DNA of 64,000 nt from the NCBI GenBank assembly GCA_946699065.1, contig CAMPDV010001209.1:62001-126000 (forward strand), read 5' to 3'. The notes beneath the pieces were generated by a model. It saw nothing but the letters and a program-made list of their open reading frames with translations, ran no database searches and had not been told where the DNA came from. A program made the translations under genes and the position numbers. Positions within the stretch are counted from its first letter, which is position 1, and each line of letters begins with the position of its first letter. Of the stretch, positions 22,145 to 60,405 are shown piece by piece. This DNA is from Loxodes magnus. Lineage: Eukaryota; Ciliophora; Karyorelictea; Loxodida; Loxodidae.

Positions 22145-23538
22145 ATGTAAGCGTTACCAAAATGCTTAATCTGCTTAGAAGATTACAACTTAACTAATGC
22201 TCTTCCAACTGTCTTACCTTGTGGACATATTTACTGTGGTTTGTGTTTGAATACTCAGTACTGATTATAAGGCATAATGTAATGTCCTATTTGTTAAAAA
22301 GGATTCCATTTTAGATTTGATGATTTACCTTAAGAAAGTGATTTAATAAGAATGATATTTTAAAACTAATAATACATATAAAAGATTTAAGATGCTAGAT
22401 AGAAATTAAAAGAGATAAGGAGGTAAATTATGGAAAATCTAAAACCATTACAACCAAATAATCAAACATTAGTAATACTCTCATAATACCACTAACTAAT
22501 ATCATCATCAATCATTAACCAACATTTATCTACCAAAAATAACACTCAAATATTATCTAATTCTACTAATCACTAAAACCAACTATACTCTAATATAACT
22601 CATAACCACCTACAATACTAAAGTCTAAATTAACTTACAATCTAATAAGATAAAAACTATAACACAATACTAAGTAACCAAATATTATTTAGACTAATTA
22701 ACATAAACTAAGCTAGCACTTTATATAATCTAACTATATTCACTATTTTAATTGATGGATTTAAAAATTAAGTTTATTTAATATTTAAACAGAGTAATTA
22801 CGATAAGTCTAAGTTTAAATTATAATTCCTGTTGACAGCCAAAGTATAGAATATTAAAATAAGTTATATTTAATTGGAGGATATAACAGAAATTAAAATA
22901 AAGGAATAAAAGAAACTTGATAATTTGATTTTGAAGGTAATAGAATAAAACTTAATGATCTAAATGAGGGAAGAGGTGGTTTTGGAATAGCAGATGCTTA
23001 AAAATATGTTTATGTGGTTGGAGGAATATCTGATAATAATCAAGTTTTATAATCAGTAGAAAAGTTAAAGATAGAAAACTAAAGTAAATGATAAAACTGC
23101 TCTTAATTTCCATTTAAAATAGCTGAATCAACTTTAGTAGTAGATAAAGATGAATAAAATATTTATTCTTTTGGAGGGTATAATTAAAAAGGATAAATTT
23201 TAAAAGATATATGAAAATATAACATATAGAATGATAGATGAAGTAAGTAAAATTTGAATCTTCCAGAAGCTGTTCTTAGGCCTATAGTTTGTTTAGAGCC
23301 TTTTGTCATATGTGGAGGTATGAAAAATGGATTTACGAAAGAATTTTCAAGAAGAATATATAAAAGAAGCAAAGAATAGTGGCAATAAAGTTAAATTTTT
23401 AAAGATATTTCTGCTTTAACGGAGATGAAAATAAGAAATAACTATGGATATGTTTTTGCTTACGAATAGGAAAGAGTTTCAATAATGAGGATTGATTTAG
23501 AAAAATTGAGTTATAGAAGTATTAGAAGTCATAACTGA
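22145..23538 (+). CDS. RING-Kelch protein, copy 2
   Basis: The ATG at 22145 opens a C3HC4 RING: Cys7-x2-Cys10, Cys26-x-His28, Cys31-x2-Cys34, Cys47-x2-Cys50 (LPCGHIYCGLC, QCPIC). A 170-residue Asn/Gln/Ser/Thr linker from a G-poor tract follows, then at least four Kelch blades (YLIGG, YVYVVGG, IYSFGG, FVICGG) ending RSIRSHN-TGA-TAA. RING domains recruit E2 enzymes and Kelch propellers bind substrates, so an E3 ligase is likely; this is inferred. RING and Kelch are one frame apart. Either a 20-base GT..AG intron at 22794-22813 restores the frame (458 codons), or one A is missing near 22436 compared with copies 3 and 4. The Kelch part itself is intact. Five Trp in this copy are TGA. Confidence 0.85.
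22794..22813 (+). other. Candidate 20-base intron in RING-Kelch copy 2
   Basis: The segment begins GTAATTACG and ends TCTAAG. Removing it joins the RING-linker frame to the Kelch frame as KQ-IQIIIPVDSQSIEYQNK. A 14-base version ending at the inner AG works equally well. Very short introns are known in several ciliate groups. Against it, copies 3 and 4 are in frame without splicing. Confidence 0.3.
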
Positions 23539-24190
23539 TAAACATAATTTTAATATCTATATTATCAATAGTATTTATAATAAATATAATTTAATATGTA
23601 AAGAAGTAGTTTAAAGATCTATAATTAGTTAAATATGTTACTACTTATTAAAATATTTAAAGCGTCTGAAATAAATAAAGAATCAAATTTTATCTTAACA
23701 TCTTTAAAAATCTATTATTCAAATATTATCATTATTCAGATACAAATATACAGCTTATAACATACCAAAACATATTCAACATAGTTAAAAAAACTATCTT
23801 TAAATACATCCTTATATTCAAATTATACAAGTACTACTTAGATTACTCTATTACATATCTAATCAAATCAAAGCTATAATTAAATAATAATTAAGCTATA
23901 CCTATATCTAAATATTAATTACGTCATCACTACTATCATCAAGTCAACATCTTAAATCCTTAAATACATTATTCCTTTAATCATTTAAACTAAAATCTAT
24001 ATAATTAAAAATGTTCCTTGTATAATCAATAATAAATCCAAGCCATTATAACACCTATACTCTCGATAAAAGCTCAATCATAAGATAATATAATAGATTA
24101 TCTTGACTTCAACATTATTAGTTTTGTTACAAATCAAAATTTTTGTTAAGTTTAATAAAATTCACCTTCTACTTTAAATTTGTTACGATC
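23539..24190. other. Conserved 3' flank of RING-Kelch copy 2
   Basis: Homologous to 504-1158 and to the flanks of the other copies. No gene called. At its right end the sequence jumps directly to LINE B sequence equivalent to 3408, with about 2.25 kb missing compared with copies 1 and 3. Confidence 0.45.
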
Positions 24191-24760
24191 TTCGTTAGCT
24201 ACATATTCTTTGAAGCTGGTTAAGGTAGATAATGATATAGGAAAAATAAGAAGTTAAATTAAGTTGTGGATATGTTGCTAATACTTAAAAGAAACGTTTA
24301 AGAAATGAATTAAAAAAGTATCAAAAATAAATTTAATGAGATAAAGAAAATATTGTATACTAACATAAGATAACAAAAAGGAGATAATGGATTGAAAAAT
24401 TTAACATTTTCATGGACTAAATAAATAAAGGTAATTTGAATAGCAAACAGATATGTTTTCACCATTAAACTGTAATTATCTTACTATTTAATATCTAATT
24501 AAAAGGTAAGAACATGAATAATTTCTTTAAACTTAAGAAAATATTTTAGCTATATTAGCCTATTTGATTAACTCTTACTTTATAAGTTATTGAGAAAATA
24601 CTTTTGAGTAAAGAAAAGTGACTTTAATTCTATAACTAATCAATTAAATATAATAATTAATTAAATCCATTATAATGATAGTATTGAAGAAATACTAGCT
24701 AATAAGCAAAATTTACAAAACTTAAAATAAACTTTAAAACTATAAGCTGATAACTTAGTA
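24191..24760 (+). mobile_element. LINE family B 3' remnant (start of RT), unit 1
   Basis: Almost identical to 3408-3966 and 44395-44952. It retains the segment that resembles the start of an RT domain and nothing of the endonuclease. It is a relic. Confidence 0.55.
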
Positions 24761-25051
24761 AATATATTATAAATTATTAATCAAATGCATAATATTTACA
24801 TTTTTCCTTTAAATTATCTAAATTAGTCTTTATTAGTAACTAAAAACAATCAAATCATAAATACGCTATTTATTACCATAGTTGAAACAGAATATAATAG
24901 TAAATAGTATAATATGTAGCCATATCCAAAATTTAAATACTAGTTTTTATTACTATAGTCATAAATATTTTACTCCAATATAATTATATTAATATCAAAA
25001 TATCATTCATAATTCATTTCAATTTACCTATCTAATACATTTTTCAATAAA
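24761..25051. other. AT-rich spacer
   Basis: Shared with 44953-45247. No feature is recognised; it probably holds the upstream region of the following gene. Confidence 0.4.
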
Positions 25052-25799
25052 ATGGCAGACTGTCTCAAGAAGGGCTTTTTTCCAGCTCCATAGAAAAGGA
25101 AAGAAAACCAGAGACTGCTAATTCTTCTTCTACCACGTCTTCTTTAATAACATAATAATTTTCTTAGGCTCTTTAACCCCAATATTTAGAAAAATAAAGA
25201 CAATCTTAAATTGAATAAGAAATTAAATCAACAGAAACTAACTAAAGCAAGCGAGGCTTTTTACTCCCATAGTTACGATCAATCAAATACATGAAAAGTG
25301 GTAACTAAAAATAACGTAGAAATAGAAAAATGATGAATAGCTAATAATAGTGAAATCTATTCGTAACATATAAGAAGAAGTTGAAATATTAAAGAAAGAA
25401 AACCAAAAATTATTATAGATAAGTTAAAAAAATGAAGAAAGATTAGTGAAACAGGAAATCGAAATGAAAATTTTGGGAGAAAAAAAATTTAACTTTAGCT
25501 GAAAATAAAATGAAACTAGATTACATAAAACCCATAGAGATAACTCCTCCCAGAAGGATCGTCAAGCTGTACTACCTGTGCAAATTAAGATTCCACATAT
25601 ATTAGAGATGCAAGATATATTTGGATAAGCAGCGAAGAAACAGTGAAGAGATTTGGAGAGAACTGTCAATGATTTATTTAGACATTGAAGACTATTTAGA
25701 AGGAGGTTTTTTCAAGGGAGTGTCAAAACTCCAAAAAATTTAGGATTCCCGAACTTTTATTTTAAACCTAAAAGAACGAACTATGGAGGTATATATTGA
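25052..25799 (+). pseudogene. Copy of the 253-residue unknown gene, frameshifted (unit 1)
   Basis: Homologue of the intact frame at 45248-46009. It starts MADCLKKGFFPAP, loses one A near 25078, regains frame by one extra A near 25172, has a nine-base in-frame deletion near 25347, loses one base near 25472 and four near 25690. Start and end (QGSVKTPKNLGFPNFYFK ... NYGGIY-TGA) are therefore in different frames. The near-perfect C-terminus and the scattered indels indicate a decaying duplicate. Confidence 0.65.
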
Positions 25800-26149
25800 A
25801 GGGTAAAATCCTCCTTAGATAGGAAAACTTTAATTTAGTATATTATTATTATTAAAAATAGTAAATATTATAATCTTATTTTAAACTTACTTAGTCTGCT
25901 TTTAAGGCTATTTTTGGGAAATTATGTTGTAATTAATATCTTAATTTATATTCTAATTCTGTTTTGTTTAAAGATAAAATATTTTCATTTAAAAATTCAA
26001 AAATATCATTGAAAAAAGTAAAAAATCATACCGCTTCTAAATAAAATCAAACAAAAAAAATTCTCAGATACTAAAATATAAAAGAAGGAAATAAATTAAT
26101 CATGTTATAAAAATAAATTAAAAATTGACCATTCATAAACATAACATAG
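25800..26149. other. Spacer after the 253-residue gene copy
   Basis: AT-rich, shared with 46010-46345. No feature recognised. At 26150 the sequence has an insertion absent from unit 2. Confidence 0.4.
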
Positions 26150-26945
26150 CATAATTTATTAAAGTGACTTCACCTTTATTTGGTTTGCCACTAATTAGTT
26201 TATGAGTTTTAAGATGTAAATAAATCTTTCAGGTCTTCTTCTATTGCATATCGTGTTGTACAGATTTAACCTTTCTTGATCTTAAGAATTTTTCTTCAAT
26301 CTCAATTAGATCCCAACATCTTCCTCGTCCTTCTTTTTTGAGAATTTACTATATCCAATAGTAATTAATCTCCACCATATAATTTTTCATTTAAATTCTT
26401 CCTCCTGGAGAACAGTTTAATTTTGTTATATTATTTCATATCTTTCAAGTATTAGATTCTTGCTTCTTCTGAAAATACCAGCATCTTCTAAAGATGTGTC
26501 CAACCTTTTAGCAATAAAAACATCTTTTTAAGATATTTCGAGTTATGTCCTATTTTTAAGCATTTTTAGCATTTTTGGAATTTTAAAAAATTGACAATTT
26601 TTTTCCGATCCGAAAAAGAATTTAAATTTTATCCTTCTATTACCATAGGATCATTATTAAGATTAAAATTGTATGGTTTATTAATTTCTATTATTTTTTG
26701 CTCCATTTTTTCCAGTTTTTAATTTCCTTGCAACATCAAGACTTTAGGGCTTATTTCCGTTTTTAACCATTAATTTTCGTTTTATAATTATTGCACAGTA
26801 AAAGTTAGAGAATCTAATCGTTAAATCAAGTTTAGAAATGATTGTTGCGTTTTTTGTCTTCCGCTTCTAGGGAGAATATTTCGATTAAAGAGTTTTATTG
26901 TTCGATTTCCTGCTAGTTTTTGGTTGATTATTTCTTAGGAGCCAT
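26150..26945 (-). mobile_element. CCHC zinc-knuckle protein insert, copy c (present only in unit 1)
   Basis: About 0.8 kb is present here and absent at the equivalent site near 46350. On the minus strand an ATG at 26945 gives MAPKKQSTKNQQEIEQQNS and LIEIFSLEAEDKKRNNHFQ. After a frame change it reads KIIEINKPYNFNLNNDPMVI and two tandem zinc knuckles: KCQKCLKIGHNSKY (26530-26575, last Cys replaced) and RCFYCQKVGHIFRRCW (26480-26523, a perfect C-x2-C-x4-H-x4-C). A single-base shift in an A run separates them. Copies a (1101-1840) and b (42110-42860) share the start (M-A/V-PKKQS) and the knuckle. The protein resembles retroelement gag or LINE ORF1; the insertion mechanism is unknown. Confidence 0.6.
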
Positions 26946-27440
26946 TTTATTTTATAATAAAAGCAGTAACTAAAGTGCCTAAAATATATTTAATTTAATA
27001 ATTTTAAATATTCTTATTCTAAAATCTAATTAATAATTGAAAACATTGATATTTATTTTTAGTTATCTTTATTTATATTTTTTTCTAATAATTAATTTTA
27101 TGCTAATACTGTATCATTAACATTAAAAATAATAAATAATCTAGAAAAAAAACATTATAATTAAATTTAGTCTAAATTTTTGTTTATTTTATTTAAAATA
27201 GAGCTATAAAAAGAATAGTAATTAAAATATATATAATAAAAGTTGTTTATTAATAAATGATATATATTTTAATCAATATTCTATTAATAATTTTAATTTT
27301 ATTTTAATTTTCTTATATATTATAGTTTTGCTATATTTTGGTATTTATTTTTTATATACAAATTTTACTGCTAAAATTATTATTTAATTTTAAAATATAA
27401 GTACTTTATACATGTTATGCATAAAAAAATGGTAAAAAAA
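26946..27440. other. AT-rich spacer
   Basis: Shared with 46375-46830. Long A/T runs; nothing recognised. Confidence 0.4.
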
Positions 27441-27559
27441 CTTGGAAATTTAAACTTTAAATTCTTACCTAATTGATCAATCTTAAGTCTCATTTAACTA
27501 AAAATAACCAAAAATTCAAAAAGATAAATCTATTCCTGTTAAGGATTGAGAAATACTTA

Positions 27560-28065
27560 ATTTCATAACAAACTAAAAAAGCTTGAGAAATTCCATGAAC
27601 AAAACATTATTCAATTTTGTTACTTAATTGAGAAAATGAATACAGAAAAATAGATCCTGAAGGCGAAAAAATAAAATCTTAGGCAACTTTTGTAAGATAA
27701 AAAAAGGAAAATAAAGGCTTGCTAAGTTAAGTTTATTTTTAAGATGAAGCTTTAACTTCTAAATTTGTATTAGTAGTAAAAACATAGCAACAAATCCATA
27801 GAAAATTAAAGATGAATTTAAATTATCAATTAAATAACTAACCTCAAACAGATAAGATGGAAATTGAAAAAAGTTTAAATAAAATAAAAAATTTACTTCA
27901 AGCCTTAGAATTTACTTAGAGAAGTTGTATAAGTATTCATCAATTACTATCAATAAATGTATGAACAACTTAAAACTAAATTTATTGATTAAAGAAGAGT
28001 TTTGCATGGATTAAAGTAATTTAGCTACTAAAAGTATGCCTATAATAATTCAGTCAAAATATTAA
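27560..28065 (+). CDS. Hypothetical PEGE-motif protein (unit 1 copy)
   Basis: A coherent frame reads WENEYRKIDPEGEKIKSQ, then ATFVRQKKENKGLLSQVYFQ, DEALTSKFVLVVKTQQQIHR and TDKMEIEKSLNKIKNLLQAL. Compared with the copy at 46950-47440, many differences fall at third positions and are synonymous in this frame. One of them swaps TAA for CAA, which supports both the frame and TAA as Gln. The DPEGE ... ATFV motif recurs in the retroelement ORF1-like protein at 9.96-10.07 kb. The N-terminal boundary is unclear; a candidate TGA end follows SINV near 27961. Function unknown, possibly retroelement-derived. Confidence 0.45.
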
Positions 28066-28329
28066 TATGTAATTAACATTTATTATCTATTTATTATATC
28101 TAAATTGCTTTTTTTTTAAACTTTTTAATCATAAAAATGCTTAAATATTTAGTTTTCTCTCTTAATACTATTCTTATATTCTTGTAGTTCAAATTTCCTA
28201 CATCTATTCTCAACACTAAAAGGTTTGATAAATCTAGAATAAAAGAATAATCACATATATCTTTGAGTTCTAAATCCTGATAAATTATAAGAATTTTGTT
28301 TTAATTCTATTTATTATTTATTATATATT

Positions 28330-28760
28330 ATATAAAATGGATATCGGCCGCGTCAGCCGAACTAGTAGGTAATCTGGTGCAGTGTATACCGCATTGCGCG
28401 TAATCTCGCACTAGATGCCACCACGGGGAAGGGTGGATAAGCTCCGTTGAGACATACCTAACTTACCCCGAGGGTTCTCTCTAGCAGTATGAAAGTTTGA
28501 CTGACGGACCTTCTAATTACCGACTTAATAACTAATTCTTATTTGGACCTTATTCAAGAAGACTGAAGCATTCGACTCAAGATTTAAGAATAATTTTTAA
28601 TAAGAAGATTTCCCATTTGGAGAAGGTGATATAACTCATCAGACCTCTAGAATTTTAACAAGAAACATGAGAACATTTTCTTAATATTAAATATTAATAT
28701 TGAAAGAGCTGCGCGCCAATGAGGTGCTACGCGCTCTATAATCATTTTTATTTATTTATC
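28330..28760 (+). repeat. Left terminal inverted repeat
   Basis: Its inner end carries the palindromic block GAGCTGCGCGCC..GCTACGCGCTC at 28702-28739. This arm is missing from unit 2 near 47690, where flanking sequence is continuous. Confidence 0.7.
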
Positions 28761-30064
28761 ATTATTCATCCTTCTTTTATATATTTTTCTGTAATATTAT
28801 ATTTTAATTCAATTTTTTATTCCTCCTTCCATAATAAGAGGTTCTAATAACACTAACGGAAAGCAAAGAACTTCAAGAATATTTAAATAATACTAGTTTC
28901 ATGTATCATTTTATATATTATACTTTCATATATCATTTATAACTTTTTTAACTTACTCCTCTAAATGAATATATATTTTCCTCTCTTTTATCTGCTACTA
29001 ATTTCTAAATTGCTTTTCAAAAGGAAATTAGTACTTCTACTAAATTTTGGAATTAATACATTTATTTTAACTTCTTTAATTTATTCTGTTTCTATATTAA
29101 ATAATCAATCTTATAAGTGTTAACTATTAGCTAATTATTTATTATAACTAAGTTATTTTCTTTTACTGCACTTGCTAAGTTAAATGGATATAAGCAGCAT
29201 TAGCATAGTATCTTTAATCACATATTAATTATTATATTAATAAGTTATAGTTTATAAAAGTTTTAGATTATTAGCATTTAAGTAATTTAAAGTTTAAGAA
29301 TATAATTTAAATTAATTTAGTTTATAATTTAATATACATAATATTTAAATACTTATTTAGCTAATTATTAATATATTAAATTCACTTATTTAAAATTACT
29401 AAGTTATAATATTAACATCAATATAATATATTTTCAGTTATTAAAGCACTAAATTAATTAGAAGTTTATTAGATTTATTAATTAATTAAAAGTAAATAAA
29501 TTTTTAACTTCTTTAAATAATTAAAATTTGTAATTAGTTTCTATAAATGTTACATTAATTATATCTTAACTCTAGTTATCATTTTAATTCCTTTCGTTAT
29601 ATCATAGTAAATTATTTTAACAAATTAAATATTAAAATAATTTTATCTTTGAAAATTGAAAAATTTTAGATGATCTACAATACATCGAAATTATAGAAGA
29701 TTTACTTATTAGAACTAATAAATTATTTTATTTTAAATAATTAAAAGAAATATTTCTTCATAGTAAAGAGTAGTTAAAATTAAACTAGTATATTAAATAA
29801 AATTTTATTTAGAGTAACAAATATTTAAGAATAAATTAAATTGTATTTATAATTAATTAGTTTGAACAAAATAATTATAATTATAAAATTAAATACTTAG
29901 GTTAGAAAAATAAACTAATATGAAAGTAATATTTATTGTAGAGAAAATAAAATTTTTATTTTTTACATTAAGCAAGGATATTTGTTATAATAGTTTGAAA
30001 TTAAAAATTACCTCTAAAGTAAAAGTTTAGTCCATTTTAATAATTTTAAAAATATTTATAATTA

Positions 30065-30469
30065 AAATAAATAAAGATGATTTTAGAGCGCGTAGCTCTT
30101 TCAGTATTAATATTTAATATTAAAAAAAGTGTTCTCAAAAGTTTGATTTCATTCTATTCAACCAAAGAGTCACTTCAGCTTCTCCTAATGGGGAATCTTC
30201 TTATTAAAAATTATTCTTAAATCTTGAGTCAAATACTTCAGACTTCTTGAATAAGGTTCAAATAAGAATTAGTAATTAGTCATTAGCAGGCCCGTCAGCC
30301 AAGCTTTCATATTGCTAGAGAGAACCCTCAGGGTAAGTTAGGCCTGTCTCTTCTGAGCTTATTCATCCTTCCCCATGGTGGCATCTATTGCGAGATTACT
30401 CGCAATGCAGTATATACTTCACCAGATTGCCTACTAGTTTTTCTGACGCGGCCGACATTCATTTTATAT
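30065..30469 (-). repeat. Right terminal inverted repeat
   Basis: Reverse complement of the left arm with scattered substitutions. Its inner palindrome is shortened (30084-30102) compared with 49033-49069. Confidence 0.7.
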
Positions 30470-31262: not shown

Positions 31263-31263
31263 T

Positions 31264-33030: not shown

Positions 33031-33270
33031 TTGTAGGTAATCTGGAACAGTGAATAACTGCATTGCGAGTAATCTCACATTAAATGCCATCACGAATAAG
33101 AGTGGACAAGCTCAAAAGAGATATACCTAACTTGTTAGAGAGCTTTCACTGACAGTCGAAGTTTTGACTGACGATGTTTAAATTTCCCATTTTTATATGA
33201 ATTTTATTTTTAGAAAGACTGTGTATTTGCAACAAAATATTAAATAATATTTTAATAAGAAGATTCCAAA
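33031..33270 (+). repeat. Diverged relic of the left inverted-repeat arm
   Basis: This matches the left arm at 28361 onward (GTAGGTAATCTGG, then AATCTCACATTA..GCCATCACG) in the same orientation, but with many substitutions and without the inner palindrome. It is also present at 51940-52190. It is an older insertion of the same family. Confidence 0.55.
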
Positions 33271-40107: not shown

Positions 40108-41503
40108 ATGTAAGCGTTACCAAAATGCTTAATCTGCTTAGAAGATTACAACTTAACTAATGCTCTTCCAACTGTCTTACCTTGTGGACATATTTACTGT
40201 GGTTTGTGTTTGAATACTGAGTACTGATTATAAGGCATAATGTAATGTCCTATTTGTTAAAAAGGATTCCATTTTAGATTTGATGATTTACCTTAAGAAA
40301 GTGATTTAATAAGAATGATATTTTAAAACTAATAATACATATAAAAGATTTAAGATGCTAGATAGAAATTAAAAGAGATAAGGAGGTAAATTATGGAAAA
40401 ATCTAAAACCATTACAACCAAATAATCAAACATTAGTAATACTCTCATAATACCACTAACTAATATCATCATCAATCATTAACCAACATTTATCTACCAA
40501 AAATAACACTCAAATATTATCTAATTCTACTAATCACTAAAACCAACTATACTCTAATATAACTCATAACCACCTACAATACTAAAGTCTAAATTAACTT
40601 ACAATCTAATAAGATAAAAACTATAACACAATACTAAGTAACCAAATATTATTTAGACTAACTAACATAAACTAACCTAACACTTTATATAATCTAACTA
40701 TATTCACTTTTTTAATTGAGAAATTTAAAAATTAAGTTTATTTAATATTTAAACAGAGTAAATACGATAAGTCTAAGTTTAAATTATAATTCCAGAACTT
40801 AGTAAAAGTATAGAATATTAAAATAAGTTATATTTAATTGGAGGATATAACAGAAATTAAAAGAAAGGAATAAAAGAAACTTGATAATTTGATTATGAAG
40901 GTAATAGAATAAAACTTAGTGATCTAAATGAGGGAAGAGGTGCCTTTGGAATAGCAGCTGCTTAAAAATATGTTTATGTGGTTGGAGGGTTAACTGATAA
41001 TAATAAGGTTTTATAATCAGTAGAAAAGTTAAAGATAGGAAACTAAAGTAAATGATAAAACTGTTCCTAGTTTCCATTTTAAATAGCAGGTTAAACTTTA
41101 GTAGTAGATAAAGATGAATAAAATATTTATTCTTTTGGAGGTGTAAATTAGAAAGGATAAACTTTAAAAGATATATGAAAATATAACATATAGAATGATA
41201 GATGGAGCAAGTAAAATTTGAATATTCCTGAGGCTGTATTTTATCCTATAGTTTCTTTAGAGCCTTTTGTCATATGTGGAGGTATGAAAAATGGATTATA
41301 CGAAAGAATATTCAAGAAAAATATATAAAAGAAGCAAATAATAATGACAATAAAGTTAAATTTTTAAAGATGTCTATGCTTTAACGGAGATGAAAATAAG
41401 AAATAACTATGGATATGCTTTTGCTGTAGAAGCGCTAAGATTTTCAATAATGAGAATTGATTTAGAAAAATTGAGTTATAGAAGTATTAGAAGTCATAAC
41501 TGA
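40108..41503 (+). pseudogene. RING-Kelch protein, copy 3, frameshifted near its end
   Basis: Same layout as copy 2, with the RING intact (Gln38 replaced by Glu, GAG at 40219). RING and Kelch share one frame here without splicing, because the A run near 40400 has five A instead of four. A one-base insertion near 41297 (GGATTATACG for GGATTTACG) shifts the last 68 codons away from the conserved ending. The shifted frame has no effective stop, so a longer aberrant tail would be made. The Kelch sequence before that point is good (YLIGG, VYVVGG, IYSFGG, FVICGG). Confidence 0.75.
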
Positions 41504-46830: not shown

Positions 46831-46949
46831 GTAAACAAATCCGGAAATTTAAACCTTAAATTCTAATAGATCAATCTTAGGTCTCAATTAACTTGCAAGA
46901 ACCAAAAATTCAAAAAGATAAATCTACTCCTGTTAAGGATTGAATTTCA

Positions 46950-47440: not shown

Positions 47441-49009
47441 TAAAATATTATATGTAATTAGCATTTTTTATCTATTTATTATATCTAAATTGCTATTTTT
47501 TAATACTTTTTAATCATAAAGCACTTAAATATTTGGTCTTCCCTCTCCATAATATTCTTATATTCTTATAGTTCAAATTTCCTACATCTATTCTCAACAT
47601 TAAAAGGCTTGATAAATCTAGAATAAAAGAATAAGCAAATCTATCTCGAGTTCTAAATCCTGATAAATTATAAGAATTATGTTTAAGTACTTATTTATTA
47701 TCATTATTCATTCTTCTTTTATATATTTTTCTGGAATATTCTATTTTAATTCAATTTTTTATTTTTCCTACCATAATAAGAGGTTCTAATAACACTAACG
47801 TAAAACACTTCAAGAAGATTGAAATAATATTAGTTTCATGTATCATTCTATATATTATACTTTCATATATCATTTATAACTTTTTTTTATTTATTCCTTT
47901 AAATGAATATATATTTTCTTCTCTTTTATCTACTACTAATTTCTAAAGTGCTATTTCAAAAGGAAATTAACGCTTCTACTAAATTTTGGAATTAATACAT
48001 TTATTTTAACTTCTTTAATTTATTCTGTTTCTATATTAAACAATCAAATCTTTAAGTGTTAACTATTAGCTAATTATTTATTATAACTAAGTTATTTTCT
48101 TTTACTGCACTTGTTAAATTAAATAGATATAAGCAGCATTAACATAGTTTCTTCATTTACATTTTAATTATTATATTAATACGTTATAGTTTATAAAAGC
48201 TTTAGATTATTAGCATTTAAGTAATTTAAAGTTTAAGAATATAATTTTAATTAATTTAGTTTATAATTTAATATACATAATATGTAAATACTTATTTACC
48301 TAATTATTAATATATTAAATTCACTTATTTAAAATTACTAAGTTATAATACTAACATCAATATAATATATTTTCAGTTATTAAAGCACTAAATAATTGGA
48401 AGTTTATTATATTTATTAATTAATTAAAAGTAAATACATTTTTAACTTCTTTAGCTAATTTAAATTTTAATTAGGTTCTATAAATGCTACATTAATTAAA
48501 TCTTAACTCTAGTTATCATTTTAATTTCTTTCGTTATATCATAGTAAATTATTTTAACAAATCAAATATTAAAATAATTTTATCTTTGAAAATTGAAAAA
48601 TTTTAGATTATCTACAATACATCAAAATTATAGAAGATTTACTTATTAGAACTAATAAATTATTTTATTTTAAATAAGTAAAAGAAATATTTCTTCATAG
48701 TAAAGAGTAGTTAAAATTAAACTAGTATATTAAATAAAATTTTATTTAGAGTAACAAATATTTAAGAATAAATTAAATTGTATTTATAATTAATTAGTTT
48801 GAACAAAATAATTATAATTATAAAATTAAATACTTAGGCTAGAAAAATAAACTAATATGAAAGTAATATTTATTGTAGAGAAAATAAAACTTTTATTTTT
48901 TGTATCAAGAAAGGATATTTGTTGTTATTGTTTCAAATAATAAATAACCTCTAAATTAAAAGTTTAGTCCATTTTAATAATTTTAAAAATATTTATAATT
49001 AAAATAAAT

Positions 49010-49433
49010 AAATAAATAAATAAAGATTATTATAGAGCGCGTAGCACCTCGTTGATGCACAGCTCTTTCAGTATTAATATTTAATATTAAAAAAAGTGTT
49101 CTCAAAAGCTTGATTTTATTCTACTTATCCAAAGAGTCATTTCAGTTTCACCTAATGGGGAAAATTCTTATTAAAAATTATTCTTAAATCTTGAGTCAAA
49201 TACTTCAGACTTCTTGAATAAGGTCCAAATAAGATTAGTAATTAGTCATTAGCAGGCCCGTCAGCCAAGCTTTCATATTGCTAGAGAGAACCCTCGGATA
49301 AGTTAGGTTTGTCTCTTCTGAGCTTATTCACCCTTCCACGTGGTGGCATCTAGTGCGAAATTACTCGCAATGCAGTATACACTTCACCAGATTGCCTGCT
49401 AGTTTTTCTGACGCGGTCGACATTCATTTTATA
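49010..49433 (-). repeat. Right inverted-repeat arm without a partner (unit 2)
   Basis: Matches 30065-30469 and keeps the full palindrome at its inner end (49033-49069). The expected left arm is absent upstream near 47690, so this is a one-armed copy. Confidence 0.65.
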
Positions 49434-50213
49434 TTATATATTAATGAATTTTATTCTTGATTATATTTTATATTCAATTATTAAAAATTTTACTATAAAT
49501 AAATAAAAGAAAAATATTAATAAAATCTGTAGTTTTTAATATGCTAAAATAATTTTTTTAAATAACCTATATTAATTCTAATAAAATATTAGTTTAATAT
49601 TAAAAAATTGTTAAATAATTTAAGTTCTAAAATTATATTATATTTTAATTTTTAAAAGCTGTACAAGATAGTTTTTTAATATATAAAAATATTTCTACAA
49701 ATATATCATTTTATTATTTTTAGTAATTGAAAATCAATAAATATCATAATTATTTATATTAAGTTTTCATTATTTTTAGTTCATTTTTTTTAATTATAAT
49801 TATTTAATTTAGATATGAGTTGCTTGGTTTTTAAATAAAAATTTATTTTTTTTATAATTAAACTTTAAAAACTAATTTTAACTTTTTTAATTTTTAAATT
49901 TTGTAAATAGCACATTTAATATATCTTAGGATAAATCTTAAATATTAAAATTTTAAATTTCTTTTTTTATTAGCTTTAAACTCAAATTTATTTTTATTAA
50001 TAATTTAAAATTTAAGCTTATTTATTTTTTATTTTTATAAATTAATAAATTATTTATGCTTTATTTATTTAATGTTTAATTTAATAAAATATTTGTGTCT
50101 GAAAGAAATTGTTTTACTTTAATCATCTTAATTAATCAAAGATAAATTAAAGTTTTCTATTGCAAAGGAATTGCAATCTCATACAGAAAAAAACATTTTA
50201 TACTTTATTATGC
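49434..50213. other. AT-rich spacer
   Basis: Shared with 30470-31262; nothing recognised. Confidence 0.4.
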
Positions 50214-51103
50214 TTCAAAAAATGTTTAGGACATACATTTTTTGTAAGACTGAAAACTCGGGATTCTCCAGATTTTTGATTCACATCTACTCTCTCTGTT
50301 CAATTAATCTATTCACTTTTTTGACGTTCCAGTTTGGTTACAGAACAATATGTTAATTTATTTTTAGTTTATCTTTCAAAATGGTCTTAATTTTTCTTTC
50401 TGACTCTTTTTCACGGTACTAATCTTTTCAATAATTTCTTTATAAAACTTAAATTTCTAACAAATCCTAAAGAGATATGAGCAATTTACGCAGTATTAAA
50501 ATTTCTTCTTGACAACTTTAAAACACCTTTTACTGATGGATAAGGATTGTTTCTTTTTATATTTCTACTTTTTGCGAATATTCCTTTTGCTCTTTTTGTC
50601 GCGCGTTTCAGAGCTTTAAGTTATCGTGCTAATTCTTTACTTTTTCGTCAAGTTAGGCAATTTATTTGCTCTAGTCCCATTAGATAGTTCAAAAACATCT
50701 ATTTCTCTTTCTTAAATCATCAGTCTCTATTAATTCTATATTTTTTTTTTGCTTCAGTTTTTGATTGATTTTTTTATTCTTTCAATTTAGACCTTTTTCT
50801 GAAGATTGAATTTCATCAGTATTAGATAGCTAATGTTTATTGTCTTTATCCAAAGTATAATTTATACACTGTCTAGATTTTACATTTTCTTTTATTGCTT
50901 TGGTTTCTCTGTCATATTTGAAATTCAGGGATTTATTTCCGTACCTTTCCTATCTTTATGATTTATGGATTTGAACTTTATAAGAAGATGTCAGTTTAAG
51001 AGGACGTAAATTGAAGTATTTCTGCTTCTGATTTTTATTCCTGTTTTGGTAAGTGTTGCAAAAGTTCTTCTTGTAGCGTTCCACCTTTTTCTTTCTTTTA
51101 TAA
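50214..51103 (-). CDS. Coiled-coil protein, intact frame in unit 2, about 295 residues
   Basis: On the minus strand one frame runs without a break. It has a basic start (RKKKVERYKKNFCNTYQNR), then KYFNLRPLKLTSSYKVQIH, ERYGNKSLNFKYDRETKAI and YTLDKDNKHQLSNTDEIQ. A long coiled coil follows (LIETDDLRKRNRCFWTIQW, QKEQKEYSQKVEIQKETIL, QVLQRNYWKDQYREKESER), then a tail ending FSVLQKMYVLNIF with TGA at 50214-50216. The start codon is not certain: no ATG is in frame just upstream of 51103, so a short first exon is possible. The unit 1 copy is broken by an 8-base duplication. No family recognised. Confidence 0.55.
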
Positions 51104-51939
51104 AATTTTAGGATATTAAAAAATACTCAGTAACATTATAAGTAATTAAATATATAAAAAATAATAAAATTTTTTAAAAAAATACAGATGGTACAATAAT
51201 TAAATATTTTATATTGTATTTATATAGAGATAAACTTATTTTTTGATAATGAAATATAATCATAATTAATATAAAATCTATTAATTATAAATATTAGTAA
51301 AATTATTTAAACAATTACATTTTATTTATTAGAATTAATTTATTATTTATTATTTATTATTCTAATATCAATTATAAAAATAATTTACTAAGTATTTTAA
51401 TTTCTAATATGTTAACTTTAATTTTGTGCTATTTTATACTTAAATCCATAAAGTATTTAACTTTTTATTTATTGTTTTAGTTAAATTATTAATTAATTAA
51501 TCGTTAATATAATTCACCCTTCTGCTTATATGTAAAATTTGAATTTCTAGTATATTTATTTCTTCTTCTAACTTCTTCCTGTCTTGGATTTAATATAAAA
51601 CCTTGTTTCTTTCTCAGATTTTTCTAGTTCATGAGAGATAAACTTAAGTATCAGTTTCTTTAAATTCCTATAAGTTAATTTAAATACTTAATATATATTT
51701 TAGTTTAATTTTAATTTGCTATCATCATCAAAATAAAAGATTAATAACATTAAATTGTATTACTTCAGAAAAATGAAAACAGATAATTAAATTTAAATGT
51801 TTAATTTTAAATTTCTCACTTTTAAAATTATTTAGATAAATAGATATAAACATAATTTGGTAATAAACATATCCATATACTAATATTAAGACTATTATAT
51901 CATTTAAAATATGCATGAAGTCATAGTCTGAAAATTTGT
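51104..51939. other. AT-rich spacer
   Basis: Shared with 32156-33030. It keeps the same short MQDRKKLEEE-like patch on the minus strand in diverged form. Nothing else recognised. Confidence 0.35.
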
Positions 51940-52190
51940 AGGTAATCTGGAACAATTAATAACTGCATTGCAGTAATCTCACATTAGATGCCATCACGAA
52001 TAAGAGTGGACAAGTTCAAAAGTTATATGCCTAACATGTTAGAAAGCTCTCGCTAACAGTTGAAGTTTCGACTGACGATGTTTAAATTTTTTATTTTTAT
52101 ATGAATTTTATTTTTAGAAAGACTGTGTATTTGCAACAAAATATTAAATAATATTTTAATAAGAAGATTCCAAATATGGAGAAGCTTAGA
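51940..52190 (+). repeat. Diverged relic of the left inverted-repeat arm (unit 2)
   Basis: Duplicate of 33031-33270. The same shared blocks with the 28361 arm (GTAGGTAATCTGG and TTAGATGCCATCACG) are seen. Confidence 0.55.
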
Positions 52191-53339
52191 TGTTTCATTT
52201 GATAATATACTAAAGACAAAAAGAATAATTAGAAAATTTAAATGAAAATAAATAGTTAATTCATGACAAAGCTATTAAAGGTAAAGTCACATTAACAATT
52301 TCTGTTTATAAAAATAGTGATTATAAACTTATAGTATAAAAACAATATAAACTTAGCTTGATAATAATATTATAGTTAGTCTAATGTCTTTAATATAAAT
52401 TTTTTAATTAGTTTTATTTAATATCTTAATTACTTATATTAGTTTATTTATAACTTTATATATTATTATTAATTTATAATTGATATTGAGCTTAGATATA
52501 TGTTGAATAATAATAGTTTTTATTTTAGTTTAATGAAAATTATAATCAGAATAACTTAATAAGGGGTTAATATAAATAAAACAAGATAGTAGAAACTAAA
52601 GATTGCAAATATGCTTAAACTTTATAAATGTTTCTATAATTTCCATTAATTGTGAATATTACTAATAAATTTCATAAATTAATAAATCTTTTTTAATAAA
52701 ATTTGATGTCTTAAAAATAAAAGTTATTAATAAAAATAAGACAATATTACAATAAATAGAATTTTAATTTATTTTTATAATTTTATCTTTACTTTGTGTA
52801 TAACTTCTATTTATTTACCATTCATTTTTGTCAATAATTGCTTCCAATTTTTTAACTAGGTATAATTTTTATGCCTTTTAATTACAAATTTATCTATGTT
52901 CCCGTTACAATTGTTATCACTCCAACCTTTGAAAATAATTGTTTAAATCTTTAATTCGAAAATATAATTATTTTAATGTATTATACAATTAGTTAAGTTG
53001 TTTGTAAAAGATATAACTTTATTTTTTGATTATGAATGATTAAATTCTTTATAAAAATTATTTAATTTTTTTATTTTTTATCTTTACTATTCTATTTATA
53101 TCTCACCTTTCATTAAGTTTATTAAAAACTTATTAACCAAACTTTTACTTCATTTAATCTTACAATTTATTACTTATTTACAACTATTTCCTTATCAAAA
53201 TAGCAGCTCATCAAACTGAGATAATATTAAATTTAAGATCTACAACCTTTTAAATTATATATAACCTAGCAATAATACCTTAAATAACTTACCTTTTTCT
53301 TAATAGTTAGAGCACATTTTTTAATCATTTCCATAAATC
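52191..53339. other. AT-rich spacer
   Basis: Shared with 33271-34436; nothing recognised. Confidence 0.4.
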
Positions 53340-54053
53340 ATGAGAGGAGTAGATTAATCTGAAAATAAAAGTATTTGAACTAATTTTTAGTAATTAATTA
53401 AGCAAATAAACAGCATTTAATTAAAAATTATGTTACTCTAAAATTATAGTAAAATCTTTAATACAGAATTTAGTTGAAAAGCCTTTAAACATCTAATTAC
53501 TTAAAAAATTAAAAAGAAGACAAAATATAAGAAATTAGAAATATTAATTAAATAAATCATGAATAAGTTATGATTAAAGCTATATAAAATCCAATGGAGG
53601 TTGAGTAGTTAAACTTAAATATTAATCAAATATAGAAAATTAGATAATCAATCAGGTAATAAAAAGAGATCAATTTATGTGCTGATTCTGGAGAAGGCTA
53701 GAAAACACAAAATAAATTGTTGGAGATACCAAAATACAAAAAAGCAAAAATAAATAATTTTTTAAAAAACCTAACTTAAATTTACTGTGCATCTGAAGGT
53801 GACTTATATAAGAAAAAATGATTGGTGGAGAGTAATTACTCTTGCAAATAATAGACAATCAAAAAAGAAGAACAAAGCAAATGTTTGGAAATGATTGAGA
53901 TTCGAATAAAATACTAACGGTAAAGAAAGGGTAGATTAGTAGCCTAAGATATGTAATAAAGTATATGGTTCTGGAGAAGAAATGAACAATTTCAATGAGT
54001 CTTTCAATGATTCTTGAGACTTTTTATAAGATAATAAATAGCAAGCCAAATAA
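53340..54053 (+). pseudogene. Unit 2 copy of the 225-residue gene, frameshifted
   Basis: Homologue of 34437-35114. It starts identically (MRGVDQSENKSIW) but has one A fewer in the run near 53513 and one extra G near 53929 (AAAGGGTAG for AAAGGTAG). The middle is read in a wrong frame between the two; the two shifts together restore the original frame near the C-terminus. The altered stretch covers about 140 codons. Confidence 0.6.
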
Positions 54054-54320
54054 AGGCATTTTCACATTATTAAATTATTTTATGTTATTATGCTATTATT
54101 TATCTTATATATTTACTATTTAAGTCTTTTTCCTTTATTTATAAAAACTATTTACTCACTTTACTAAAAGTTAGATTTATCCTTAATATTTAAACTATGC
54201 AATTTTTTAAATATAGTTCTCTGAAAGAATAAAGAGAATGCCTAAGTTCTAGCATAGTGTATATAATAATTTAAAAATAAGTTTATCATTAATTCATCAA
54301 ACTTTAATTAATAAAACTAT

Positions 54321-54566
54321 TATGAAATCATATAAACATATGGCTCCAAAGAAATAAGTATCTCCTGTGAAAGCATTTAACAATACACATAACTTAATTA
54401 ATTAGTTTTATATGCTATAATTGGAAGAATAGAAGCTAAAAAAAGAAGTTTAAAACACGAAATAAATAACTTATTCTCTTATGTTTACTATCAAAAAATT
54501 GATCAATGAACTGAACCTTATAAAGAAAATTAGCTGGTTTACCCAAATTCATTCTTACACTTTTTG
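54321..54566 (+). CDS. Hypothetical small basic protein, unit 2 copy
   Basis: Near-identical to 35419-35664 (MAPKKQVSPVKAFNNTHNL). The only coding change seen is Tyr to Gln (TAT to TAG), and the TGA end is kept. Both copies remain open, unlike the neighbouring larger gene. Confidence 0.4.
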
Positions 54567-54659
54567 ACGTAATCTTGACTGTATATTTTTTTAAAGAAAT
54601 AATTTCTTGAAATCAGTGTCCTAATATTTATATTCCTTCACTCTTTCTATTATCATTTT

Positions 54660-54920
54660 ATTTATATATATTATTTGTCAACTTTGTATTGTCTTTCCAT
54701 TCATAGCATTCACTACATCTTATCTGCAATTTTCATATTATGATATTAAGATCACTGTTGTAATATTTCAATCATCTCTTGTAGTCTGGACTTACCATCA
54801 TTTCAATGTCATCTGCATATGCTAATGTTCCCATATATCATTCCTCTGTATATTATTCTTATTCCATGCTTGTGGTTATTCCTACTTTATTTTATCTTAA
54901 TTAGTTGAGAAGTTTATTTA
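54660..54920 (-). mobile_element. LINE family C reverse transcriptase, catalytic part (unit 2)
   Basis: The minus strand reads GTLAYADDIEMMVSPDYKR, with the catalytic YADD intact (54808-54819). It corresponds to 35760-36020, where YADN is found. It is separated from the rest of its RT by the insert at 54925-55475. Confidence 0.65.
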
Positions 54921-54924
54921 TTAT

Positions 54925-55475
54925 ATATTTTTTAAAACCGCCATAGTTGTTCGAAGGTGAACAACAAGGTCATCTTCATCAGAGGTTGGGGAAGTTAATC
55001 GACTTTATGTCTTCCTCTGCTTTGGTTTGACCTCGAGACATAAGATTCTTAGACCTTCGACACTGGCTTGGCTTGGCTTGGCTTCGTTTATTTTTAATTC
55101 TGGAACTAAAAAGAAATAATATTGCGAGCTTCATCAGAGGTGGGGAATTTAAGTACCCATAATTGACACATGTCGTCCTCTGCTTTGGTGATGCAATGAG
55201 ACACAATCCTGCCATGTCCTTGGACCTCCAAAAAGTATTAAAGATTACGAGTATTCTAAAATTATATCAGTATTGAACATTTTTATCATTACTGAATAAT
55301 TATACCAGTATTGAACAAGGTTTATCAGTATCTGATAATTTTATCAGTAACAAACATTCTTGTCAGTATGAAACATTTTTTTTAAAGAGCTGCGCACCAA
55401 CGAGAGTGCTACGCGCTCTATAATAAAATTTATTTATTTATTATTTATTATTTATTCATTATAATATTGAATAAC
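54925..55475. repeat. Insert in LINE C (unit 2): GC-richer island, tandem repeats and palindrome
   Basis: Copy of 36021-36590. The first direct repeat has lost about ten bases (GTACCCATAA). The (GGCTT)n run, the 20-base tandem repeats (about 55265-55370) and the palindrome (55385-55422) are kept. Confidence 0.6.
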
Positions 55476-58400
55476 CTTAGTGAACATGAGCTACCTTATT
55501 TAACTCATTTCCCCGTTTAAAACTGTTCTGATATTTAATAATTTATTTTTATCTTTGCTTCTTCTCAGTAAGGAGCTTGATTATTTGCTCAGGTATTTCA
55601 ATTTCATTTAGTATCTTTCATATATATTCTCTTATTACTAAGCAAAAGTTTTTTAATATCAATAAATATTCTGCTTTTTCTTGATTATTTTGCTTAAGTC
55701 ATTCTTGTGCAGTTCTTAGATTGAAGATTTGCCATAAGCATGATTTATCTTGATTGGAGTCATATTATAATTCATCGTCATACCTGCTCAAATACGAGTT
55801 TGTTTATCCAATAATCAGAGATCTATGATTTTTACTATATGAATTAAAAGTGAAATCAGCTTATAATTCATAAGGTCTTCCATTCTAACTTTTTTATGAA
55901 GTAGTATAATAAAAGATCTTTTTATTTTGCTTGGCATAGCTCCAGATTGTATTATTTTTTATGTTAATGTTGCGGTTAGGTTAGAAAACTTATCTCCTCC
56001 AGCTCTTATTGTTCCTATTTATATTCCATCAGGTCCTACGACTTTTCATTAGGAGAGCGTTTATATACAGCACACTAAATTTTCTTTTTAAACCTAAATT
56101 TTTTATGTGTTCCTGTATGAGTCTGGTAATCTATTGCTGCCACTTTTATAGAGCTCCTCTCAGCTTTCTTTAAAATTCGGCATATTATTTTCGTTTTTTA
56201 ATGTCCATTGTGCGTATTTTATCTATTTTAATTTTTTTATATTCCTTTTAAAGTGTTGTTTAAGCTTCCTTAATTAATTTCATCTTAATAAACATTGAAT
56301 TTATTTTTCCTATCATTTTTTAGATGCAATATAAATTTCTCCTTACTTCTTATCTCATTTAATATAATTATCAATTTATTAGCATCCTTATCTAATTAGA
56401 TATTTTACTTATTTCACTTACTATTAGAAATGTTTTTTTAATTTTATTGTTTCTGCTGTATATTAGTATTTTCTAATTTAATTTGTTACAAATCCATATA
56501 TCGCTTTGGTCGCTTCTTGGATTTAATTTAATCATTTTTCATAGTATGCTTCGCTATCGAAATTTTCGAATTCGCTAAGATCTATTTTTTCGAATCATTC
56601 TTTGAATCTCTCTTTAACCTTTTATTGCTTTAATTGTTGAAATTTTATCCTTTTAATTTATGGACTTTTTCTAAATTCTTCCGAAATTTTTATCTTTATT
56701 TATCTGGCTAATGATCTCCTATTTGTCTCTATTGATAGAATTTTGTGCTGATAATGCTAGGTGTAATGTATTGATTCATTAAGAATCAATTTATTTTCAA
56801 TTTTCCATTCTTTTATGTTGTGATGATGGTTGGATATTGATTTGAATCTTTACATTCTAAAATATAATCTTTCTTCAATTTAATAAGCATTAGCCTGTAT
56901 TATTCTGCTCATACGGTAAAAATTGGAGAATATGCGAGTTTAAATCCCCTAATATTAAAATTATAATCCTTTGTTGTTTGCTGCTATTTTGTATTATTAT
57001 AGACTTTCATAAAAGGGTATTAGTTAATTATAGTTGGATGTTGTAGTTTTATATACGTTTATCAATTCTAGCTAATCATCAAGTGTTAAACTTATTAATC
57101 TTCCACTAAAACAGATCTGCTTGATTGAGATCCGCTATATCCAACACTTTCGTTCTGCTCGTAATTCCATCTTTTATATAAAATGATACTCTTTTGTAGT
57201 GTTTTGTGCTCAATTTTATTATTGCTCTGAATCCGTATATATAAGGCATTTAATCAGTTTGATGCTTAAATATTTCTTAAATCGCCATAATTTCTATCTT
57301 CTTTTCACACATAAACTTGTTTAATTCTTGTTTTTTTATATTACTCTGACATTTGCTGTGCCTATGTTTAATTCTGTCTATTTTATTTATTATTATTTCC
57401 TTTTACTTCCTATTTTACTACCCTGAATTTTTAGCTTCCTCTTCTTTAATAGAGTGAAAACCAAATTGTTCTAATGTTTATTATTTTTCCTGTATTTATG
57501 TCTTCTTTTTTTTACTCGATATTGTCTTCCTTTCCATTATATATTTTTTTCTATTTTTTTGAGACAGTGTTGTATTTATGCATACTTCCTTCCTGTCACT
57601 GTTTTATATATGTTTCAGTTTTTTTGGTATATTTCATATTTTACTTTCTGTTTTTTGTGACATTGATAGTTTCGCCTCAGTTTTATTTATTTAATTTTGT
57701 AGTTAAGTATCTATTAAAATCGATCGCTTTTAAAGAAACTTTAATATGGCTTAAACTTGTAGCTTTTTCTAGAAATAAAAGTGGTATTTTATTTGAAGGT
57801 TAATCTTCTTCAGTTTTCTTCACTTTCTTTTCTTTCGCTATCTGTTTCTCTTTATAGTAAGGCATTTTATTCCTAAGTTCTACATGCATCAACCTGGTTT
57901 TTACTTCCTTAGCATTTCTAATTGCTTTCTTTATAGCTTTTTTATTAAGTATTAATTTTTGCTATATCCTTATTTGTTGCAGTTTAAACATTTTAAAATT
58001 GATGGTTGGCGATACAACGATATGTGTATGGGATTTCCAGACTGACTCAAGTAAGTATTTTACCTTTCGTCTAACTTATCTAGTATACTTTCTGCGTCTT
58101 TGCTCTCCTTTAATTCTAAATAAATTCTCATTTTCCCATTGACTCACGTTATACCTTTTACATCTCTATACAGACTATTTTTCCGTACTGCTATAGATGG
58201 GTTTCTACCTGGCTAAAACTTGAATACATGTTAATTGTTCAATGAATCAGATAGCTCTTAATGTATTGAATTCCTCTATGTTTCTTTGTTCTTTAGGTAT
58301 TAAAAAACTTCTAGTCTTCTATGTTTAATTATTTCCAATTTGTGAGAGTGCTTCTTTATTTTTGATTCACATAATAATTATTCCTTTTTAAGAATTTTCA

Positions 58401-58890
58401 TACTCTCAGAATTTTTACCATATTCTTAATTTAAATATCTGAGAAATGCTTGAATTATTTCATTTTCTTGCATTTCTGCTGGATTGAGCCTTTGGCTGTA
58501 GTATTCTTCTTCTAAAAATTTATTGAAACAGGTAACTCATACGCATTTAGCCGTTTTGAACTGCATATTCTTCTCCTCATTTTATGGTAATTTGCTATTT
58601 TATTTTCTTCTTCCATTATAATGATTTGCACAGAGCTGTGGTTTGAGTTGATGTTCTAAATTATCTACTGTTTTTGATAGGTTACTTAGTTTTAAGATTT
58701 CTGTCCTTTTTTTTCTGCATTACTTCTAGTAGTTATAATATTTTGCGACAGAGTCTTTTTTCTTAAAAATAATATCAAAAATCTTATTAAGTTGTAAAGC
58801 TCTTTCATTTCTTTATTAAATTTAATAACTAATCTCGATCCGAGATTGGCGGCATGTGGAATATAGGATTGCTACTTGATATAATAGCTT
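55476..58890 (-). mobile_element. LINE family C, copy 3
   Basis: Duplicate of 36591-39990, with RT (GPDGI, NYRP region) and endonuclease. The catalytic motif region reads GDLNSHI, closer to consensus than copy 2. Small indels break the frame in several places. It precedes RING-Kelch copy 4. Confidence 0.65.
57990..58050 (+). pseudogene. WD40-repeat fragment inside LINE C, copy 3
   Basis: Same plus-strand fragment as at 39090 (GDTTICVWDFQTD). Confidence 0.4.
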
Positions 58891-59010
58891 AATATTGTAG
58901 TATTTAAGTAAATAAAGTAATAATGTAATAGTTGATATAATTGAGTGTATTTTTGATGGTAACTGTTATAAATTACCTTTATAGCTTTTGTAGTCTAAAT
59001 AATAATAAAA

Positions 59011-60405
59011 ATGTAAGCGTTACCAAAATGCTTAATCTGCTTAGAAGATTACAACTTAACTAATGCTCTTCCAACTGTCTTACCTTGTGGACATATTTAC
59101 TGTGGTTTGTGTTTGAATACTTAGTACTGATTATAAGGCATAATGTAATGTCCTATTTGTTAAAAAGGATTCCATTTTAGATTTGATGATTTACCTTAAG
59201 AAAGTGATTTAATAAGAATGATATTTTAAAACTAATAATACATATAAAAGATTTAAGATGCTAGATAGAAATTAAAAGAGATAAGGAGGTAAATTATGGA
59301 AAAATCTAAAACCATTACAACCAAATAATCAAACATTAGTAATACTCTCATAATACCACTAACTAATATCATCATCAATCATTAACCAACATTTATCTAC
59401 CAAAAATAACACTCAAATATTATCTAATTCTACTAATCACTAAAACCAACTATACTCTAATATAACTCATAACCACCTACAATACTAAAGTCTAAATTAA
59501 CTTACAATCTAATAAGATAAAAACTATAACACAATACTAAGTAACCAAATATTATTTAGACTAACTAACATAAACTAACCTAACACTTTATATAATCTAA
59601 CTATATTCACTTTTTTAATTGATGGATTTAAAAATTAAGTTTATTTAATATTTAAACAGAGTAATTACGATAAGTCTAAGTTTAAATTATAATTCCAAAC
59701 TATAGTAAAAGTATAGAATATTAAAATAAGTTATATTTAATTGGAGGAATTAACTAAAATTAAAATAAAGGAATAAAAGAAACTTGGTAGTTCGATTATG
59801 AAGGTAATAGTATAAAACTTAGAGATCTAAATGAGGGAAGAGGTACCTTTGGAATAGCAGCAGCTTAAAAATATGTTTATGTGTTTGGAGGATTAACTGA
59901 TAATTATCAAGCTTTACAATCAGTAGAAAAGTTAAAGATAGGAAACTAAAGTAAGTGATAAAACTGCTCTTAATTTCCAATCTAAATAGCAGATTTAACT
60001 TTAGTAATAGATCAAGATGAATAAAATATTTATTCTTTTGGAGGTGTAAATTAGAAAGGATAAACTTTACAAGATATATGAAAATATAATATTTAGAATG
60101 ATAGATGGAGTAAGTTAAATTTGAATCTTCCTGAAGCTGTTGCTGGGCCTATAGTTTCTTTAAAGCCTTTTGTCATATGTGGAGGTTTAAAAAATGGATT
60201 TACGAAAGAATTTTCAAGAAGAATATATGAAAGAAGCAAAGAATAATGATAATAAAGCTAAATTTTTTAAAATGTTGTGGCTTTAACGGAGATGAAAATA
60301 AGGAATAACTATGGATATGTTTTTGCTATAGAATAAGAAAGCGTTTCAATAATGAGGATTGATTTAGAAAAATTGAGTTATAGAAGTATTAGAAGTAATA
60401 ACTGA
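59011..60405 (+). CDS. RING-Kelch protein, copy 4, in frame throughout
   Basis: The ATG at 59011 and the TGA at 60403-60405 (followed by TAA) are in one frame of 465 codons without splicing. The C3HC4 RING is intact; residue 38 is Gln written TAG, where copy 2 has CAG. Kelch blades read YLIGG, YVYVFGG, IYSFGG and FVICGG. Two Trp that are TGA in copy 2 are TGG here (59785-59787 and 60106-60108), and one Gln is CAA (59917-59919) where the others have TAA. In this copy the linker is read in a different frame from copy 2 because of the five-A run near 59300; I cannot tell which linker is ancestral. This is the best candidate for a working member. Confidence 0.85.

Follow-up and report, generated by a model that had tools for sequence, protein, structure and literature searches.

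A karyorelict genetic code and a probable repertoire of RING-Kelch ubiquitin ligases in a stretch of the Loxodes magnus assembly

Introduction

The genetic code of Loxodes (TAA and TAG read as Gln, TGA either encoding Trp or terminating genes) is given in the excerpted text of PMC11441545, where a survey of stops names UGA as the sole stop. The same karyorelict code (translation table 27) is given for Parduczia in excerpts of PMC4967479. Here, this code and a family of genes for proteins with a RING finger at the N terminus and a Kelch propeller at the C terminus are analyzed in a stretch of 64,000 nucleotides, contig CAMPDV010001209.1, positions 62001-126000, of the assembly GCA_946699065.1. 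This whole stretch is hereafter called the window. The assembly examined contains 705,730,643 bases in 7,843 contigs; the macronuclear assembly of Loxodes magnus was published as 706 Mbp, with abundant retrotransposon domains (PMC11441545, excerpts). The G+C content per 4-kb block of the window is 20-29%. The window belongs to a macronuclear genome, that of a karyorelict ciliate and most probably of L. magnus.

Two other codes resemble that of the window. In Condylostoma magnum (table 28), all three stop codons double as sense codons, as stated in the cited part of PMC4967479. UAA and UAG also terminate genes there, in contrast to none of the 40 gene ends examined here, one pelota gene aside. 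In Blastocrithidia, all three stops are reassigned, with UGA read as Trp and UAR as Glu (PMC12153298, excerpts); here, TAA and TAG encode Gln, as judged by conserved columns of eRF1 and actin.

Among ubiquitin ligases, Keap1 and the other BTB-Kelch adapters share the Kelch propeller with the family described here. The pocket residues of Keap1 include Tyr334, Arg415, Ser508, Tyr525, Tyr572, and Ser602, among others (PMC6891428, excerpts). These adapters carry BTB in place of RING and are single conserved genes rather than a repertoire. The MATH and F-box adapters of nematodes are greatly expanded, and their substrate-binding domains are under strong positive selection (PMC5392922, excerpts). 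They are separate adapters of cullin ligases and have other folds, whereas here RING and Kelch are joined in one protein, whose RING end is nearly invariant at the DNA level. These nematode families are the closest parallel. No relevant paper on diversified RING-Kelch families was found among those listed in an open-access library.

We consider it probable that the window combines table 27 with members of a repertoire of RING-Kelch E3 ligases whose RING is constant and whose target pocket is under positive selection. In support of the repertoire, the number of copies (counted as exact matches), the reading frame, the positions of variation, and the excess of replacement changes were computed.

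Results

RING-Kelch copies in the window

Four RING-Kelch copies were found in or at the window (Table 1). An uninterrupted frame of 464 codons is present in copies 3 and 4, and TGA-TAA closes all four copies at the same place. In copy 3, the RING scored 37.6 bits with zf-RING_UBOX (cut-off 25.2), and the Kelch part scored 62.3 bits with Kelch_4 (cut-off 21.6) and 58.0 bits with the KLHDC2/KLHL20 model (cut-off 50). This copy also matched the solved Kelch chain 2woz with an expect value (E) of 4.4e-10. The Pfam scans covered six frames of window positions 9501-24500 as well as selected pieces. Translation of the window with table 1 yielded no open reading frames of at least 200 amino acids, in line with the expectation, made in a preliminary description from the sequence alone, that standard-code annotation would miss the genes. 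A codon-usage scan of the window returned four coding stretches, three of them Kelch parts. The fourth, 17498-18088 on the minus strand, lies inside a match to large-subunit ribosomal RNA (LSU rRNA) and was rejected as a false call.

Identity among the four copies is 99.7-100% over the first 380 bases and 90-92% over the Kelch part. The RING end and the G-poor stretch that follows it (22145-22770 and the equivalents in the other copies) are nearly identical even at silent sites, whereas the Kelch part is not; this suggests gene conversion or a recent spread of that end.

Stop-type codons in the paralogs

All eight codons reported in the preliminary description as interchanging between copies are present at the positions given there, and the copies align as claimed. 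Some details went unnoticed there. At the site where CAG (22256) is exchanged for TAG (59122), two of the four copies have GAG; codons 22256 and 22918 of copy 1 stand in different frames because of the one-base deletion near 22434. Between copies 1 and 3, 9 of the 13 differences involving TAA, TAG, or TGA codons in the Kelch part are synonymous under table 27. The rest of the 13-kb duplication, counted in all frames and on both strands, gave 60 of 266 triplet differences as a baseline, which is a rate and not a test because overlapping, non-independent triplets were counted. For TGA alone, the corresponding values are 3/3 and 5/71. When all four copies are compared, 10 of 20 variable stop-type codons are synonymous in the reading frame; for the two alternative frames, the counts are 2 of 12 and 1 of 22. 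Across 29 distinct copies (see Variation of the Kelch part), codons 259, 366, and 413 occur solely as TGA or TGG, and codons 316 and 357 are always TGA. Additionally, in each of the eight listed Pfam families related to Kelch, Trp was the best of 10 residues tried for TGA. These paralogs make the assignment of TGA to Trp very likely.

The same comparison was less decisive for TAA and TAG. Where the four copies vary, the partners of these codons were CAR (4), AAA (3), TTA (3), GAR (2), and others (3). Reading them as Glu rather than Gln gave 66.8 vs. 65.2 bits for Kelch_4. Glu scored slightly above Gln for Kelch_4, Kelch_1, and ATRN and below it for KLHDC2, Kelch_6, and NANM, an even split of six families. 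Neither partner codons nor Pfam scores separate Gln from Glu; the earlier claim that the whole code is proved by paralogs was thus judged too strong and, as regards TAA and TAG, rejected. Taken alone, the paralogs would leave Gln undistinguished from Glu or Lys. The claim that TGA also fills conserved Trp positions outside Kelch did not hold equally well. In the WD40 gene, TGG encodes the Trp of the 'IWD' motif, and TGA falls in 'DxKw'; there, Trp outscored Cys and Arg with the WD40 and WDR5 models and scored below them with WDR3_1st and THOC3. The WD40 scores are mixed and support TGA as Trp weakly, and the endonuclease match is weak (Table 1).

Release factor, actin, and gene ends

The Gln assignment was settled by eRF1 and actin genes outside the window and not by the RING-Kelch paralogs. 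Two eRF1 copies were found on contig C196, open across 436 codons and scoring 532 bits against the solved eRF1 4d5n. In this genome's own eRF1, TAA encodes the Gln of the GGQ motif. In the alignment with the reference, TAA or TAG falls at Gln in 9 of 19 cases and CAA or CAG in 2 of 8. Among 10 residues tried for TAA/TAG, Gln gave the highest summed Pfam score (306.0 bits), followed by Lys (300.6 bits). Both copies end in TGA, and several further in-frame TGA codons lie beyond this stop. They also have RAQNIKS in place of the TASNIKS of the aligned solved eRF1.

Actin-family matches in the assembly numbered 96. Four actin loci were selected for having internal TGA codons. Of these eight codons, five align with Trp in the main actin and three do not. 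All 34 actin loci analyzed (the four selected and 30 more, with 9 distinct 3' ends) terminate in KCF-TGA or KCY-TGA. A comparison of the main actin with PDB at E<=1e-150 gave no match. Dozens of near-identical actin genes are present on contigs C266, C437, C524, C707, C711, and others.

The same genes thus carry TGA both as an internal Trp codon and as their stop, which matches table 27: TAA and TAG encode Gln, and TGA encodes Trp within genes and stops translation at gene ends. How ribosomes distinguish these two roles of TGA has been addressed in published work. The GGQ motif of eRF1 and the Trp columns of actin confirm the karyorelict-type code that had been proposed. The proposal that no codon is an unconditional stop stands for all three codons as sense codons, with the addition that TGA ends genes in 40 of 40 cases, a tally drawn from few independent genes (actin, eRF1, and RING-Kelch). 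Only Lys and Ala genes were found among 20 transfer RNA (tRNA) loci scanned, out of 30; a tRNA-Trp(CCA) with a 4-bp anticodon stem is present in Loxodes according to excerpts of PMC13092985.

The first eRF1-family match, on contig C2, was rejected as eRF1 since it proved to be pelota. Two results run counter to the assignments made above. In domain 1 of eRF1 alone, Lys and His slightly outscore Gln. The pelota gene (C2:1760500-1764500, minus strand) reads ...ANPEAFMI-TAA, and no in-frame TGA follows for more than 65 codons. This gene end is the sole doubtful point in the agreement with the code of Loxodes and Parduczia, and it bears on the choice between tables 27 and 28, which the preliminary description had left open. 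If table 28 applied, TAA and TAG would terminate genes too, as TAA may do in pelota; the depletion of UAA ahead of stops in L. magnus (PMC11441545, excerpts) points in the same direction. However, TGA ends were found in actin (34/34), eRF1 (2/2), and RING-Kelch (4/4), few as these independent genes are. The pelota end is possibly either a TAA stop or a one-base error of the assembly, since removing one T from the four-T run before it would yield a TGA end. Table 28 is thus given hardly any credence here, and table 27 is retained.

Size of the RING-Kelch family

A 38-base stretch of the RING (from 59068) is matched exactly at 1,099 places in the assembly (603 + 496), though a match need not stand for a whole gene; its reversed control has none (0 + 0). 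Contig C132 holds 33 of the first 100 listed RING places, at distances of 6.9 to 65.6 kb from one another. The 40 top-ranking genomic matches to a 1,390-base query from copy 3 are all full length with an identity of at least 95%, and their span is exactly 1,390 bases in 36 and 1,391 bases in four. RING-Kelch genes thereby appear to form a very large family, both dispersed and tandem. Given a k-mer genome size of ~261 Mb, both haplotypes may be present in the assembly, so the gene number per haploid genome may be lower.

Variation of the Kelch part

The sample consisted of 34 Kelch sequences, namely the four of the window and 30 of the 39 other members of the best 40 matches; the nine omitted include all four with a span of 1,391. 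In total, 29 of the 34 sequences are distinct and 33 are in frame. Among the 256 Kelch codons of the 29 distinct sequences, 137 encode one residue throughout, and nine have an entropy above 1.8 bits. Up to 13 residues are encoded at one codon, as at codon 231. The alignment was anchored at the GG of five blades (FA in the last blade). The residue directly after GG has a mean entropy of 1.82 vs. 0.36 overall, a value matched by none of 255 circular shifts. For the loop 13-15 residues ahead of GG, the entropy is 1.08, and one of 255 circular shifts was as high. Both sets of positions were defined only after the entropy profile had been seen. Of 15 sites chosen on the 25 copies outside the window, 14 also vary among the four copies of the window, as compared with 47 of the 241 other sites.

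The ratio of replacement to synonymous differences (pN/pS), which takes no account of recombination, is 1.63 for the 50 loop codons and 0.35 for the 206 other codons. In 20 random split halves, the values were 1.67 and 0.48. The overall ratio of replacement to synonymous substitutions (dN/dS) among 14 copies is 0.64.

The copies might instead be decaying pseudogenes or passengers of a selfish repeat, in which case both the stops and the variability would be meaningless. The frameshifts in two of the four copies, the repeat-like abundance of the RING stretch, and the overall dN/dS fit such decay. However, the frame is kept in the great majority of the Kelch parts analyzed and, by span, in 36 of the 40 best matches; outside the loops pN/pS is low; and at three codons TGA is exchanged solely with TGG in 29 copies. 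We regard decay of the family as unlikely. The corresponding caution in the preliminary description, that all copies could be pseudogenes, applies to the frameshifted copies 1 and 2, and the open frames of copies 3 and 4 are free of it.

Besides the late definition of the loops and the neglect of recombination, several points weigh against a repertoire shaped by selection. Most of the sequences (30 of 34) were drawn from the 40 genomic loci that best match copy 3 and are close relatives, and copies 1 and 2 are frameshifted. Searches of protein collections, in which shared 5-residue words were required, returned no homolog (4148 candidates at E<=0.001; 401 candidates at E<=1). Single-sequence fold prediction failed, with a predicted local distance difference test score (pLDDT) of 31.6. 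Synonymous differences (pS) are more frequent at the variable codons (0.27 vs. 0.10), and so are differences at fourfold third bases (0.192 vs. 0.065); selection on amino acids is therefore not the whole story. Multi-base differences per codon amount to 0.44 at the variable codons vs. 0.012 elsewhere.

The last figures bear on a further alternative, in which the variable codons are targets of directed mutation comparable to that of diversity-generating retroelements, rather than being selected among random mutations. The changes of two to three bases per codon amid near-invariant neighbors fit such a process, as do the raised third-base differences. For example, copies L081 and L083 differ at four variable codons, at three of them by more than one base, and at six bases elsewhere. 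Yet third bases are often fixed (T in 28 of 29 copies at codon 378 and A in 29 of 29 at codon 443), and all bases change, not A alone. Exchange of short segments between copies produces the same pattern and is preferred here as the reason for the clustered multi-base changes. Directed mutation is accordingly judged very unlikely, and diversifying selection combined with segment exchange is kept as the explanation.

Other features of the window

Coordinates are collected in Table 1. The change of frame in the WD40 gene would be either a frameshift or a short intron. The endonuclease-reverse transcriptase match is probably a fragment of a long interspersed nuclear element (LINE).

Table 1. Positions of the features in the window (position 1 is its first base)
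Feature	Position	Strand	Description
RING-Kelch copy 1	22145..23538	+	1-base deletion near 22434; TGA end 23536-23538
RING-Kelch copy 2	40108..41503	+	1-base insertion at 41298; TGA end 41501-41503
RING-Kelch copy 3	59011..60405	+	464-codon open frame under table 27; stop TGA 60403-60405, then TAA
RING finger of copy 3	59026..59166	+	Codons 6-52
Kelch part of copy 3	59641..60400	+	
Hypervariable codon starts, copy 3	59698, 59701, 59755, 59845, 59893, 59908, 59911, 60046, 60058, 60142, 60145, 60196, 60277, 60328, 60337	+	
RING-Kelch copy 4, 3' part	1..503	+	Open frame; TGA 501-503; 5' part just upstream of the window
Duplicated segment	28748..42044	+	94.9% identity to 47691-60948
Second copy of duplicated segment	47691..60948	+	
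WD40 repeats	12203-12813	-	126-base tandem repeat; reading resumes in another frame near 12420
LSU rRNA 3' part, eukaryotic, isolated	17272-18150	-	506 bits over model positions 2391-3399 (of 3401); maximum G+C 45%
Endonuclease-reverse transcriptase match	19931-20116	-	Weak: E 4e-4, 20.6 bits, cut-off 27.4

Discussion

The code itself is already published for Loxodes and hence is nothing new. What is new here is the gene family, although related expanded families of ligase adapters are already known. The ligase activity, the pocket geometry, and the targets of the RING-Kelch proteins are predictions from sequence. The RING end, almost identical among copies, would recruit the ubiquitin machinery, and the Kelch end would bind the target. 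The residues that likely line the pocket in each blade may have diverged under diversifying selection, and exchange between copies would keep the remaining sequence alike. The family could thereby constitute a repertoire of ligases for many targets. The blade-relative positions of the variable residues agree with a Kelch pocket; the fold model itself was unusable. The pocket residues of Keap1 occupy positions directly behind GG or within the d-a loop, presumably the same two kinds of place as those of the variable codons.

As to what such a repertoire would serve, genes on the order of a thousand might form a germline-encoded recognition repertoire, with one ligase end in common and pockets diversified at single codons, against rapidly changing intracellular non-self, such as viruses, intracellular bacteria, or the abundant retroelements that this genome does not remove by editing. 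This defense function is tentatively suggested and is rather doubtful at present.

The window illustrates that a genetic code can be read from raw DNA when conserved genes serve as the yardstick. In the Loxodes group, the genome is described in excerpts of PMC11441545 as being without extensive editing and rich in retrotransposons. The RING-Kelch family derives its importance from being a candidate system for innate recognition in such a ciliate. With a constant effector and a pocket that varies at a few known positions, the pocket of each copy would be readable from its sequence, and the targets may be traceable.

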